Part shown: positions 10,973-15,170 of the stretch, in pieces
Layout: every line of letters begins with the position of its first letter
Numbering within the stretch: the stretch's first letter is position 1
NCBI RefSeq assembly: GCF_002270355.1
Contig: NZ_NJFZ01000022.1
Coordinates: forward strand, 1 to 64,000
DNA from: Flectobacillus sp. BAB-3569
GTDB lineage: Bacteria > Bacteroidota > Bacteroidia > Cytophagales > Spirosomataceae
Direction of reading: 5' to 3'
DNA length: 64,000 bases
Program-made: the position numbers and the translations under genes
The notes under the pieces: model-generated
The model's database searches: none
The model's input: only the letters and a program-made list of their open reading frames with translations
What the model was told of the DNA's origin: nothing

Positions 10973-11881
10973 ATGGACTTTGGAAAACTTTCGAAATTTG
11001 ATGTAGGGCGTGTCGATTTTACTCTCTTACAAGATAATACCTTTAATTTGGAGGTATTAGATGGAACACAAAAGACAAAACCTAAAGTCTGGATAGGATG
11101 TCCCATTTGGGCTAATAAAGAATGGAATGGGAAAATATATCCTTTTACTGCCAAAAATCAAGATTACCTTTCTTTATATGCCAAGCAATTCAACACAATT
11201 GAATTGAATGTGACGCACTACCAAATACCCAATGAAGAAACTATTCAGCGCTGGGTTACCGAAACAGGAAATGACTTTTTGTTTTGCCCAAAATTCCCGC
11301 AGGTGATTTCGCATGATAAACAGCTCCAAAATGCACAAGAACTAAGTCAGTTGTTTTGTAATAGTATTTTGTCGTTAGGCGATAGGTTAGGTTCGAGCTT
11401 TTTGCAATTGGCTCCACAATTTGGTCCAAGACAATTACCCATTTTAGAGAAATATATTCAAACGATACCCCAGCAATTAAAATTCTCGGTGGAATTCCGA
11501 AATGAAGATTGGTTTAAAAATCCAACTATTTGGCAAAATACCCTTCAAATGCTCAAATCCTATCAAGTTGGAACAGTCATAACCGACGTAGCTGGACGAC
11601 GTGATGTTTGTCATCAGAGCCTGAGCACCACTACTGCAATGATTCGTTGGGTTGGCAATGAGCATCCTTCTGATTATAAACGAATAGATGAGTGGGTACA
11701 AAGAATCAAACAATGGTTGGATACTGGCTTAGAAGAATTATACATTTTTGTACATATCTGTGAAAATACCATTGCGCCCGAAATGGCGAATTATTGGATT
11801 CAGGAGCTAAATTTGCATTGTAATTTGGCGATTAATCCTCCCAAATTTTTACCCAAAATAGAACAAATGAGCTTGTTTTAA
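10973..11881 (+). CDS. DUF72 (YecE-like) TIM-barrel protein
   Basis: The 302-residue protein matches the DUF72/YecE family: WIGCPIWANKEWNGKIYPF near the N-terminus, the LNVTHYQIP segment, and LKFSVEFRNEDWF with the conserved EFR. These are features of the TIM-barrel fold assigned to the family. The biochemical role of DUF72 is not established. The gene stands alone on its transcript: a strong terminator lies before it, and the his leader begins 54 nt after its stop codon. No ribosome-binding site stands out, which is usual for this phylum. Confidence 0.85.
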   Translation: MDFGKLSKFDVGRVDFTLLQDNTFNLEVLDGTQKTKPKVWIGCPIWANKEWNGKIYPFTAKNQDYLSLYAKQFNTIELNVTHYQIPNEETIQRWVTETGNDFLFCPKFPQVISHDKQLQNAQELSQLFCNSILSLGDRLGSSFLQLAPQFGPRQLPILEKYIQTIPQQLKFSVEFRNEDWFKNPTIWQNTLQMLKSYQVGTVITDVAGRRDVCHQSLSTTTAMIRWVGNEHPSDYKRIDEWVQRIKQWLDTGLEELYIFVHICENTIAPEMANYWIQELNLHCNLAINPPKFLPKIEQMSLF

Positions 11882-11934
11882 GGATGATATAAATGCTTGA
11901 ATCGCAGATAAATGCAAAAATAGATAGATAATAC

Positions 11935-11965
11935 TTGGTGTTTGTATATTCTTCGTCTAACTTTG
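11935..11965 (+). promoter_or_regulatory. Predicted promoter of the his attenuator/operon
   Basis: TTG at 11935-11937, a 20-nt spacer and TAACTTTG at 11958-11965 fit the Bacteroidota TTTG/TAnnTTTG promoter. Transcription would begin within a few bases of the leader ATG at 11970, so the leader mRNA would have almost no 5' untranslated region. Confidence 0.6.
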
Positions 11966-11969
11966 CGCC

Positions 11970-12014
11970 ATGAACAGCACAATTACACATCATCATCACC
12001 ACTTAATTTCCTAA
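11970..12014 (+). CDS. hisL: His operon leader peptide (five tandem His codons)
   Basis: The reading frame is ATG AAC AGC ACA ATT ACA, then CAT CAT CAT CAC CAC, then TTA ATT TCC TAA. It encodes MNSTITHHHHHLIS, 14 residues, with the five His codons at 11988-12002. It lies upstream of hisH with a 16-bp terminator between them, the arrangement of a ribosome-stalling attenuator leader. Starvation for His-tRNA should halt the ribosome on the His run before the stop codon and leave the adjacent 12018-12027 segment free to form an antiterminator. The peptide itself is not expected to have another role. It is too short for ordinary gene callers. Confidence 0.9.
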   Translation: MNSTITHHHHHLIS

Positions 12015-12017
12015 ACG

Positions 12018-12089
12018 GGAATGGGCTGATGCGTGTTTGTGCCATTTTGAAGAATTGAATTATTCAAAATATACAAAAAGCCTGATTCC
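12018..12089 (+). promoter_or_regulatory. His attenuator: antiterminator pairing region
   Basis: GGAATGGGCT (12018-12027), just past the leader stop codon, is complementary to AGCCT-G-ATTCC (12079-12089): ten pairs, one of them a G-U pair, with a single bulged G84. The 3' partner is the 5' arm and loop edge of the terminator, so the two structures exclude each other. A ribosome finishing at the stop codon (12012-12014) would cover 12018-12027 and favour termination. A ribosome stalled on the His codons would leave it free. A small intervening hairpin, ATTTTGAA/TTCAAAAT, lies at about 12043-12069. Confidence 0.75.
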
Positions 12090-12115
12090 TTACCGAGTCA
12101 GGCTTTTTGTATTTT
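12073..12115 (+). terminator. His attenuator terminator hairpin
   Basis: ACAAAAAGCCTGA (12073-12085) is perfectly complementary to TCAGGCTTTTTGT (12098-12110). Three more pairs (T-G, T-A, C-G) extend the stem to 16 bp with a 6-nt loop. The T-run in the 3' arm and the position 70 nt before hisH make it a regulated rather than a simple end-of-gene terminator. Confidence 0.88.
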
Positions 12116-12180
12116 GGCAGTATCCTAAAAATTACTTTGAAGGCTCTAACCGATAAGCCTGACCATAAATTTTACCGTAA

Positions 12181-12765
12181 ATGAAAACTGTAATTATTAA
12201 GTATAATGCTGGTAATGTTCAAAGTGTTATGTACGCCATGGATCGCATTGGCGCATCTTATCTTTGGACTGACGATGAGCAAGAAATTCGTACTGCCGAT
12301 AAAGTTATTTTCCCTGGTGTTGGCGAGGCAAGTACTGCTATGAGCTATTTAAGAGAAAAAGGCTTGGATAAAGTTATTCCTTCTTTGACACAACCTGTAC
12401 TTGGTACGTGTGTAGGTATGCAATTGATGTGTCGTCATTCTGAAGAAAATAATACCACTTGTATGGGAATTTTTGATTTGGATGTAAAGCGATTTGATTC
12501 TAGCAATTTTAAAGTCCCACATGTGGGTTGGAACAATATTTACAATCTCAAAACGGAATTGACACAAGGCTTGCGCGAGGATAGCTATATGTATTTTGTA
12601 CATAGTTATTTTGCTGAATTGAGTCCCTATACCGTTGCAGAATGTAATTATGTACAACCATTTTCGGCAATGCTTCAAAAGGATAACTTCTATGCAGCGC
12701 AATTTCATACAGAAATTAGTGGAAAAGAAGGTCAGTTGATTTTAGAAAACTTCCTGAAGCTGTAA
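12181..12765 (+). CDS. hisH: Imidazole glycerol phosphate synthase, glutaminase subunit HisH
   Basis: The 194-residue class-I glutamine amidotransferase supplies ammonia to HisF for the fifth step of histidine synthesis. The nucleophile lies in LGTCVGMQLM (C77), and the partner His and Glu in QFHTEIS (H176, E178). The oxyanion region FPGVGEA is at 44-50. Length is normal for HisH. It is the first structural gene after the attenuator. The early pathway genes (hisG, D, C, B), which often precede hisH in Bacteroidota, are absent from this window, so the operon here is only the H-A-F-IE block. Confidence 0.96.
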   Translation: MKTVIIKYNAGNVQSVMYAMDRIGASYLWTDDEQEIRTADKVIFPGVGEASTAMSYLREKGLDKVIPSLTQPVLGTCVGMQLMCRHSEENNTTCMGIFDLDVKRFDSSNFKVPHVGWNNIYNLKTELTQGLREDSYMYFVHSYFAELSPYTVAECNYVQPFSAMLQKDNFYAAQFHTEISGKEGQLILENFLKL

Positions 12766-12836: not shown

Positions 12837-13559
12837 ATGATTCAGATTATTCCAGCAATTGATATTATCGATGGCAAGTGTGTACGTCTTACCCAAGGAG
12901 ATTATTCTCAGAAAAAAACTTATAACGAAAATCCATTAGAAGTTGCCAAGTCATTTGAAGATGCAGGTATTCAGCGTTTGCATTTGGTAGATTTGGACGG
13001 TGCCAAGCAAAAGCGTATTATCAACCATAAAGTTCTTGAAACAATCGTCAACAAAACCAGCTTACATATTGATTTTGGAGGAGGTGTACAGTCAGACGAA
13101 ATGATTCAGTTGGCTTTTGATTATGGTGCCAAACAAGTAACAGGTGGTAGCGTAGCAGTAAAAAATCCAGAATTGTTCGAAAAATGGTTACAAGAATATG
13201 GTGGTGAAAAAATCATATTAGGCGCAGATGCCAAAGATGAAAAAATCGCTATTTCAGGATGGGAAGAGTCAACAGAAAAATCAGTATATGATTTTGTAGG
13301 AGAATATATTGCTAAAGGAGCAAAATATACGATTTCAACAGATGTAGCCAAAGATGGTTTATTACAAGGACCAAGTTTTGACTTATACCAAAAACTTCAA
13401 GACCGTTTTGCTGACTTACATATCATTGCGAGTGGTGGAGTATCTGAATTGAAAGATATTATTCAGTTAAACGAAATGAATGTCTTTGGTGTAATCGTAG
13501 GAAAAGCTATTTACGAAGGGCGTATTACTTTGAAGCAATTAGCCGATTTTCATAAATAG
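12837..13559 (+). CDS. hisA: ProFAR isomerase HisA
   Basis: The 240-residue TIM-barrel enzyme isomerises ProFAR to PRFAR, the fourth step of histidine synthesis. The catalytic aspartates are visible as D9 in IPAIDIIDGKCVRL and D131 in ILGADAKD. The two phosphate-binding turns appear as DFGGGVQS and IASGGVSEL. The start follows hisH by 71 nt. Length and motifs are entirely typical. Confidence 0.96.
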   Translation: MIQIIPAIDIIDGKCVRLTQGDYSQKKTYNENPLEVAKSFEDAGIQRLHLVDLDGAKQKRIINHKVLETIVNKTSLHIDFGGGVQSDEMIQLAFDYGAKQVTGGSVAVKNPELFEKWLQEYGGEKIILGADAKDEKIAISGWEESTEKSVYDFVGEYIAKGAKYTISTDVAKDGLLQGPSFDLYQKLQDRFADLHIIASGGVSELKDIIQLNEMNVFGVIVGKAIYEGRITLKQLADFHK

Positions 13560-13723: not shown

Positions 13724-14479
13724 ATGCTAACGAAAAGAATTATTCCTTGTTTGGACATAAAAGACGGTAGAACTGTAAAAGGAACTAACTTCGTTAATCT
13801 CCGCGATGCTGGCGACCCTGTAGAATTGGGTGCTATTTACGCCGAACAAGGAGCTGACGAATTGGTATTTTTAGATATTACCGCAACAGTAGATAACCGT
13901 AAAACCTTGATTGATTTGGTGCGCAATGTAGCACGCCATGTCAATATCCCTTTTACGGTAGGCGGAGGAATCTCTTCCATCGACGATGTTTCGGCATTAT
14001 TGAATGCGGGTGCTGATAAAGTTTCAATTAATTCCTCGGCCGTTCGTCGACCAGAATTGATTAACGAACTAGCACTACAATTTGGTTCTCAATGTATTAT
14101 CGTTGCAATTGATACTCGATTTGTAGAAGGCGAACATATCGTGCATACACATGGTGGACGCAAACCTACCGAATTGCGTACTATTGCATGGGCAAAAGAA
14201 GTAGAAGATCGTGGAGCTGGTGAAATTCTGTTGACTTCTATGGATACAGATGGCACAAAAGCTGGTTTTGCCAATGAGCTTACCGCTACTATTTCTGCAA
14301 ATTCTTCTATTCCAATTATTGCTTCTGGTGGTGCTGGAACCATGGAGCATTTTACAGAAGTATTTACTGCCGGAAAAGCTGATGCTGGATTAGCTGCAAG
14401 TATCTTCCATTTTAAAGAAATAGATATTATTGAACTAAAACAGTACCTTCAAAAACAAGGAATTTCAGTAAGATTATAA
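13724..14479 (+). CDS. hisF: Imidazole glycerol phosphate synthase, cyclase subunit HisF
   Basis: The 251-residue TIM barrel combines PRFAR with ammonia from HisH to give imidazole glycerol phosphate and AICAR. Catalytic residues D11 ([15 protein letters not shown]) and D130 (IVAIDTRF) are present, as are the phosphate loops TVGGGIS and IASGGAG. It lies 164 nt after hisA; the spacer carries an intergenic repeat. It should form the HisHF complex with the 12181-12765 product. Confidence 0.97.
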
Positions 14480-14570: not shown

Positions 14571-15170
14571 ATGCAATTAGATTTTGAAAAACAAGGAGGC
14601 TTGATTCCTGCCGTTATTCAAGATGCCAAATCCGACAAAGTATTAATGTTGGGATATATGAATCAAGAGGCGTTGGAAAAAACAGAGAAAGAAGGTGTGG
14701 TTACATTCTTCAGTCGTTCAAAGCAACGTCTTTGGACTAAGGGAGAAACCTCAGATAATTTTCTACATGTAGTCGAAATTTTGAAAGACTGTGATGAAGA
14801 TACACTTTTAATTAAAGTTAATCCAGCTGGTCCTACTTGTCACACAGGTGCTGACACTTGTTGGAATGAGGTAAATGCACCAGGGCAGGCAGGTTGGTTG
14901 AATTACTTGAAAGCTGTCATTCGTGAGCGTAAAAATAACCCTTCCGAAAAATCATACACAGCAAGTTTGTTTGAAAAAGGAACCAATAAAATTGCCCAAA
15001 AAGTAGGGGAGGAGGCTGTCGAGCTAGTGATTGAAGCAATGGACAACAACAATGATTTGTTTAAGGGCGAAGCCGCAGACTTATTGTTTCACTATTTGGT
15101 ATTGTTAGAGCAGAGAGGTATTGATTTTGACGAAATCATTGACGTACTTCGTAAAAGACATAGCAAGTAG
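14571..15170 (+). CDS. hisIE: Bifunctional phosphoribosyl-AMP cyclohydrolase / phosphoribosyl-ATP pyrophosphatase
   Basis: The 199-residue fused enzyme catalyses the second and third steps of histidine synthesis. The N-terminal HisI half (about 1-105) holds GYMNQEAL, FFSRSKQRLWTKGETS and the metal-binding Cys motif GPTCHTGADTCW. The C-terminal HisE half (about 108-199) holds EEAVELVIEAMDNN and GEAADLLFHYLVLL, the all-alpha NTP-pyrophosphatase fold. The fusion is the common form in Bacteroidota. It is the last his gene of the block. Confidence 0.96.
   Translation: MQLDFEKQGGLIPAVIQDAKSDKVLMLGYMNQEALEKTEKEGVVTFFSRSKQRLWTKGETSDNFLHVVEILKDCDEDTLLIKVNPAGPTCHTGADTCWNEVNAPGQAGWLNYLKAVIRERKNNPSEKSYTASLFEKGTNKIAQKVGEEAVELVIEAMDNNNDLFKGEAADLLFHYLVLLEQRGIDFDEIIDVLRKRHSK

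Follow-up and report, generated by a model that had tools for sequence, protein, structure and literature searches.

Organization of the hisH upstream region

The window, a 64,000-nt stretch of Flectobacillus sp. BAB-3569 DNA (contig NZ_NJFZ01000022.1), carries hisH, hisA, hisF and hisIE in that order on one strand, each matched above the cut-off of its family model (Table 1). The closest named hisH is that of Flectobacillus longus (99%, in a comparison that may have excluded entries from the genome of the window itself), and NCBI taxonomy places Flectobacillus in Flectobacillaceae, Cytophagales. Another contig of the genome holds hisG (PF01634), followed by genes that we read as hisD and hisC.

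A first-pass annotation of this DNA had proposed a complete histidine attenuator upstream of hisH, opening with a promoter-like pair and a leader with five tandem His codons, and both elements were borne out. The promoter has the Bacteroidota form TTG-N20-TAnnTTTG; a scan for TTGACA/TATAAT promoters returned one weak site versus 1.9 expected, so the his promoter is not of that kind, and the terminator rule of the same sigma-70-type scan gave 0 matches, missing the his terminator. The His run is present in the leader; in shuffled versions of the window, a run of five CAY codons turned up in 1 of 100, a mean of 0.01 per version. Overlooked in that annotation was the spacer between the -7 box and the leader ATG, which is CGCC and thus 4 nt long; we refer to this distance as the gap.

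Table 1 Features of the his attenuator region, the his genes and the trp leader of the window
Feature	Position	Strand	Evidence or remark
-33 element TTG of a probable Bacteroidota sigma-A promoter	11935-11937	+	20 nt 5' of the -7 box
-7 box TAACTTTG, consensus TAnnTTTG	11958-11965	+	Sequence; columns kept in 17 leaders
Predicted transcription start, A of the leader ATG	11970	+	Inferred from the 4-nt spacing
Leader peptide ORF MNSTITHHHHHLIS, 14 codons, ATG at 11970, stop TAA at 12012-12014	11970-12014	+	Sequence
Five tandem His codons, CAT CAT CAT CAC CAC	11988-12002	+	Sequence, shuffle test
1:2 hairpin, leader ORF with segment past the stop codon	11977-12042	+	Minimum-free-energy fold, window's sequence alone
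Antiterminator 5' arm GGGAATGGGCT, from the third base past the stop	12017-12027	+	Pairing search, fold
Antiterminator 3' arm, mostly the 5' half of the terminator	12079-12090	+	Pairing search, fold
Intrinsic terminator, 17-18 bp stem, 6-nt loop, T-rich tail	12071-12112	+	Fold; covariation
hisH, IGP synthase glutaminase subunit, putative first controlled gene	12181-12765	+	NCBIfam TIGR01855, 195.7 bits vs cut-off 105.4
hisA	12837-13559	+	TIGR00007 above cut-off
hisF	13724-14479	+	TIGR00735 above cut-off
hisIE	14571-15170	+	NF002747 above cut-off
trpE leader MTTNFKNTAWWWQLTILG	53985-53929	-	Box TAAGTTTG 30 nt before ATG

Alternative folds of the leader RNA

The predicted transcript (11966-12115) folded at -51.4 kcal/mol (z = -7.95), with 0 of 200 shuffles as good, and its minimum-free-energy structure consists of the leader-codon hairpin, a small hairpin at 12044-12070 and the terminator. 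The terminator had previously been placed at 12073-12110 with 16 bp; the structure itself stands, and its extent is greater, namely 17 bp at 12072-12111 (-24.2 kcal/mol) or 18 bp in the full fold. Also recovered was the antiterminator, earlier drawn as 12018-12027 with 12079-12089, which in our search comprises 11 pairs with one bulge (-14.5 kcal/mol; Table 1) and is incompatible with the terminator as well as with the leader hairpin.

Histidine leaders before hisH in related genomes

Among 39 genomes of relatives, the window's own included, 34 contained hisH, and 30 loci were listed. Searching these for a TAnnTTTG box, a gap of 0-30 nt and an ORF with at least two His, we found a His-bearing leader before hisH in 17 of the 30, from 13 genera and all in one family (f1); the gap was exactly 4 in all 17, with a second in-frame ATG at 22 in L011. 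No His leader was found before hisH in the remaining 13, which were L008 (where the upstream DNA is 127 nt, ended by the contig end), six other f1 members and six loci of other families. When the 13 were rescanned more widely for ORFs with at least three His, one nested ORF pair, in L020, was the sole result and was not leader-like.

The gap was then measured in 80 named hisH loci by a scan for a His-rich ORF plus terminator that made no promoter requirement. This yielded 35 leaders, every one with an ATG at gap 4 (four also had another in-frame ATG), and the remaining 45 loci, with the box as criterion, gave four more at gap 4. One further ORF, in L310 at gap 1, looks like chance, starting 29 nt before hisH and lacking a His run. 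A gap of 4 was hence seen in 39 of the 40 named loci with a leader-like ORF, although the two hisH sets overlap and share ancestry, so that the constant spacing does not represent many independent events; before hisH in the other 41 of the 80, the searches found no leader. The spacing of the TTG element across the 39 leaders was 24 nt in 17, 19 nt in 10 and 20 nt in six.

These data bear on another reading, in which the hairpin merely serves as terminator for the gene upstream of it (10973-11881) and the His-rich ORF is a coincidence. As this reading would have it, gene and hairpin share a strand, and 190 nt separate the end of the gene from the hairpin. Set against it, a slightly laxer detector of a His-rich ORF plus terminator was positive in 37 of the 80 named loci, whereas five other residues gave 0-2, the reverse strand gave 0 and shuffled sets a mean of 0.1; in addition, a promoter of the appropriate type is found between gene and hairpin. 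We regard termination of the upstream gene as a very improbable account.

Turning to the structures, the alignment of the 17 leaders had 98.9% of 184 terminator cells paired versus 94.4% in shuffles. Both sides were changed in four pairs, which 4 of 500 shuffles equalled or exceeded; for covariation the score was 0.289 versus 0.188, with 0 of 500 shuffles as high; the tested structure was taken from the window's sequence and is therefore favoured in the sliding control, and the shuffles ignore relatedness. The absence of His runs and terminators from relatives, an outcome that the first-pass annotation had named as counting against its reading, was thus looked for, and what was found is a leader at 17 of 30 loci and a terminator that covaries.

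For the antiterminator, the search in relatives covered the stop codon and the 28 nt 3' of it, earlier positions being outside the range, and within this range the best pairing started between the first stop base and 5 nt past the stop in 17 of 17. Sequence by sequence, the pairing was only modestly better than shuffles (p 0.004-0.76 over the 17, with five below 0.05, two of them near-identical), and in L010 the pairing past the stop was weaker than in shuffles (-5.2 vs -7.0 kcal/mol). We also exchanged arms between genera, using one sequence per genus: a leader's own arms averaged -14.7 kcal/mol versus -12.4 when swapped, and 29 of 20000 permutations were as good in the first run, in which the L010 arm was moved upstream of the stop. 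On repeating this with L010 moved, unmoved or omitted, 30, 22 and 15 of 20000 permutations were as good.

Two further features were observed before hisH. Loci L023, L024 and L026, from three genera, share TTTTTTCCTGACAAATTTAGCGAACAAATA followed by a hairpin and T-run, without a His leader, and this shared stretch had no Rfam match at gathering score. In L010, L017, L018 and L019 (four genera), the stretch separating leader and terminator includes a conserved GTGTAATAAGGTTGAATACA...GTACCCC block.

Predicted 5' end of the leader mRNA

A pyrimidine-purine start site at the A of the leader ATG would have a pyrimidine at -1, and this is the base found there in all 39 named gap-4 leaders and in 16 of 17 leaders of the first set (A in L004). 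In Flavobacterium psychrophilum the TAnnTTTG box has been placed at -12 to -5 (PMC9723704), and in probable promoters of F. johnsoniae the box and the start site are 4 or 5 nt apart (PMC6847099). Combined with these published maps, a gap of 4 nt puts +1 on the A of the AUG, and the his leader mRNA is thus predicted to begin at its start codon, that is, to be leaderless. In the alignment of 17, the invariant columns 5' of the terminator region are TA..TTTG and ATG, both of which were also selection criteria for these leaders.

It might instead be argued that the attenuator has a conventional short 5' UTR, with a start upstream of 11970 and ordinary translation of the leader. In favour of this, 87% of predicted F. 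johnsoniae transcripts have leaders of >10 nt (PMC6847099), 5' UTRs of about 26 and 39 nt are predicted for the trp and ilv leaders of the window's own genome, and most hisG leaders across the class sample have larger gaps (see below). Yet there is no second TAnnTTTG in 11880-11969, and all 17 leaders of the first set and 39 of the 40 named loci with a leader-like ORF retain a gap of 4 while its four bases vary, with 23 distinct, though C-rich, tetramers among the 39 named leaders. The near-constant pyrimidine at -1 also speaks against it, as does the base at -3, where the A that favours initiation on F. johnsoniae mRNAs (PMC6847099) occurs in 12 of 39 named leaders only. A conventional 5' UTR therefore seems improbable to us, and we prefer the leaderless start.

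Of the mRNAs mapped in F. psychrophilum, 5.5% are leaderless (PMC9723704), and 5' UTRs of <10 nt make up about 3.7% in B. thetaiotaomicron (PMC7366714). As predicted from the gaps, leaderlessness is the rule for his at hisH in family f1 and not for leaders generally, because only three of 20 Trp-run leaders of relatives have gap 4 (assessed by eye).

Histidine leaders at hisG

In a class-wide sample, PF01634 was matched in 68 of 149 genomes, and of the 30 loci listed, several of them from one genus, 22 had a His-rich leader and terminator before hisG (controls: other residues 0-1, reverse strand 0, shuffles 0.2). A TAnnTTTG box lay within 50 nt in 17 of the 22, and the gaps were 4, 7, 8, 9, 11 (four), 12 (five), 14, 18, 20 and 37; in L351, the one at gap 4, additional in-frame ATGs occur at 10 and 22. 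These leaders are accordingly predicted to have, for the most part, a short, non-zero 5' UTR.

Among 30 listed hisG loci of the closer relatives there were four leaders, two in f1 (L062 and L068, gap 4 in both) and two in other families (L067 and L069, gaps 16 and 10). The window's own genome had no His leader in the 392 nt upstream of hisG, where the one TAnnTTTG lies 62 nt before the ATG, and an upstream search at four hisG loci of the same genus (L086 and L088-L090) likewise gave no His leader. With leaders at 22 of 30 hisG loci in the class and at few in the relatives, the usual place of the his leader is hisG in the class sample and mostly hisH in f1, from which we infer either a relocation or a second acquisition in that family.

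Covariance model and Rfam searches

A covariance model of the 17 leaders had matches in 163 of 395 genomes of the phylum. Among the matches listed only 33 were full-length, so the rest were not counted as leaders; by eye, 22 of the 33 were amino-acid leaders and 11 were not. As the model contains the promoter and the ATG, this set is biased to gap 4 and was not used for the spacing claim. Run against the window's own genome, the model returned 26 matches with E no higher than 10. Apart from the his leader, we inspected 19 of these: one is the tyr leader described below, and the rest resemble ordinary terminators or chance hits.

Rfam reported no his operon leader in the whole window at gathering score, and no his leader in 11900-12200 at E up to 10. 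The Thr_leader and sRNA matches obtained were weak, below cut-offs, and overlapped the terminator stem or its flanks. None of the his, trp, tyr and ilv leaders was reported by Rfam at gathering scores. The strong structure of the leader might suggest a sensor of His-tRNA or histidine that is independent of translation, T-box or riboswitch-like; this we find hardly conceivable, in that no T-box or riboswitch was among the Rfam matches and that conservation falls on a start codon, on His codons and on pairings around a stop codon.

Proposed mechanism

The recurring leaders, the covariation of the terminator and the arm-swap test support the original proposal of a complete, ribosome-mediated his attenuator. 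We consider it very likely that the region is a ribosome-mediated transcription attenuator of hisH-A-F-IE, with a leader mRNA predicted to start at the AUG, and its layout suggests that the operon is probably switched on when histidine runs short. A ribosome would load on the 5'-terminal AUG as this emerges from RNA polymerase. With charged His-tRNA plentiful, it would reach the stop codon and cover the 5' arm of the antiterminator, because this arm begins at the third base past the stop; the terminator would then form, ending transcription before hisH. When His-tRNA is short, the ribosome would stall on the His codons and keep the first segment unpaired, allowing the segment past the stop to pair with the 5' half of the terminator and giving read-through. 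If there is no translation, the leader hairpin would form and termination is expected.

Relation to known systems

Known systems for comparison are the enterobacterial his operon attenuator (hisL) and an attenuator of Sinorhizobium meliloti, a member of the Alphaproteobacteria. Unlike hisL, the present leader stands before hisH in a split his pathway, has a predicted AUG start and lacks a match to the Rfam his leader. It resembles S. meliloti trpL/rnTrpL in that the 5' end of the attenuator RNA coincides, here by prediction, with the leader-peptide ATG, and differs in that rnTrpL belongs to a tryptophan system and has reported trans roles (PMC7298713). In Streptomyces lividans, too, leader peptides, most of them leaderless, precede amino-acid and tRNA-ligase genes, although this is an actinobacterium and the eight leaders reported in the portion seen include none for histidine (PMC8079986). 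Closest in phylum is F. psychrophilum, with suspected leader-peptide attenuation before amino-acid operons; the main text, as far as consulted, describes neither a histidine case nor a leader peptide that is leaderless (PMC9723704).

Attenuation and leaderless leader peptides are thus already known elsewhere. A search by titles and abstract openings found no described Bacteroidota his leader, although an earlier description may exist beyond that range, for instance in subscription papers or supplements. As far as that search reaches, what is apparently undescribed is the predicted leaderless start fixed in a Bacteroidota his attenuator, together with its place at hisH. Bacteroidota mRNAs lack Shine-Dalgarno sequences (PMC6847099), so how a leader peptide obtains its ribosome in time for termination control is worth asking. 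A leader starting at +1, with a spacing kept over 13 genera, would be a concrete answer to this question of timing.

A possible, if rather doubtful, extension is that the f1 attenuator moved from hisG to hisH and became strictly leaderless, such that the promoter sets the time of ribosome loading and all transcripts begin with the AUG. The attenuator would then sense the ease of 5'-terminal AUG starts as well as charged His-tRNA, and its attenuated product of about 140 nt would be a small leaderless mRNA that could act in trans as rnTrpL does.

Other amino-acid leaders

The his layout had been said to mirror that of a trp attenuator in the same window. The trp attenuator and the position of its antiterminator near the stop codon hold: GGTTGAGCAGTA (53934-53923) pairs with TACTGTTCAACC (53879-53868) over 12 bp, spanning the stop codon (-17.8 kcal/mol). 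The 5' ends differ, the predicted 5' UTR being about 26 nt for trp and none for his. Elsewhere in the genome, a tyrosine leader (MNQSINTYRAYYYYALQA, gap 5) precedes genes for a class I/II aminotransferase and prephenate dehydrogenase (tyrA), and a branched-chain leader (MKVSGFVNIILVLVILRCEV) precedes ilvD, with the box 43 nt before the ATG and a predicted 5' UTR of about 39 nt. Upstream of thrA and the phenylalanine hydroxylase gene of this genome no leader was found, nor was one found at a second ILVD-family gene (L205). The suggestion that attenuation is general for amino-acid operons here consequently holds for four of seven, namely his (at hisH), trp, tyr and ilv, with no leader found at hisG, thrA and phenylalanine hydroxylase.

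In relatives, 24 of 30 listed trpE loci were scanned, six paralogue-level matches being left out, and 20 of the 24 had a Trp-run leader. Tyr-codon-rich leaders with a terminator were seen before a biopterin-dependent aromatic amino acid hydroxylase in L097, L100, L120, L214, L216 and L220, where L097 and L120 have Pfam matches below cut-off to 70-residue starts only and L100 was named by eye. They are possible tyrosine attenuators of phenylalanine hydroxylase, an enzyme that would make Tyr from Phe. A different family of the order has Phe/Tyr-rich leaders before DAHP synthase (L094, L095, L096, L101 and L122; Pfam tested for L094 and L122), each with its ATG 4 nt past a -7 box or near match, in a set biased to gap 4 by the search model.

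Between promoter and ilv leader ATG, all seven loci shown (L193, L194, L196, L197, L190, L189 and L186) carry the palindrome-like AGCGAAATTTCGCT or close variants, a possible operator or 5' hairpin. Finally, the trp leader ATG lies 14-33 nt past a same-strand tRNA-Pro(cgg) gene in L045, L047 and L049, and these leaders may be cut out of the tRNA transcript.
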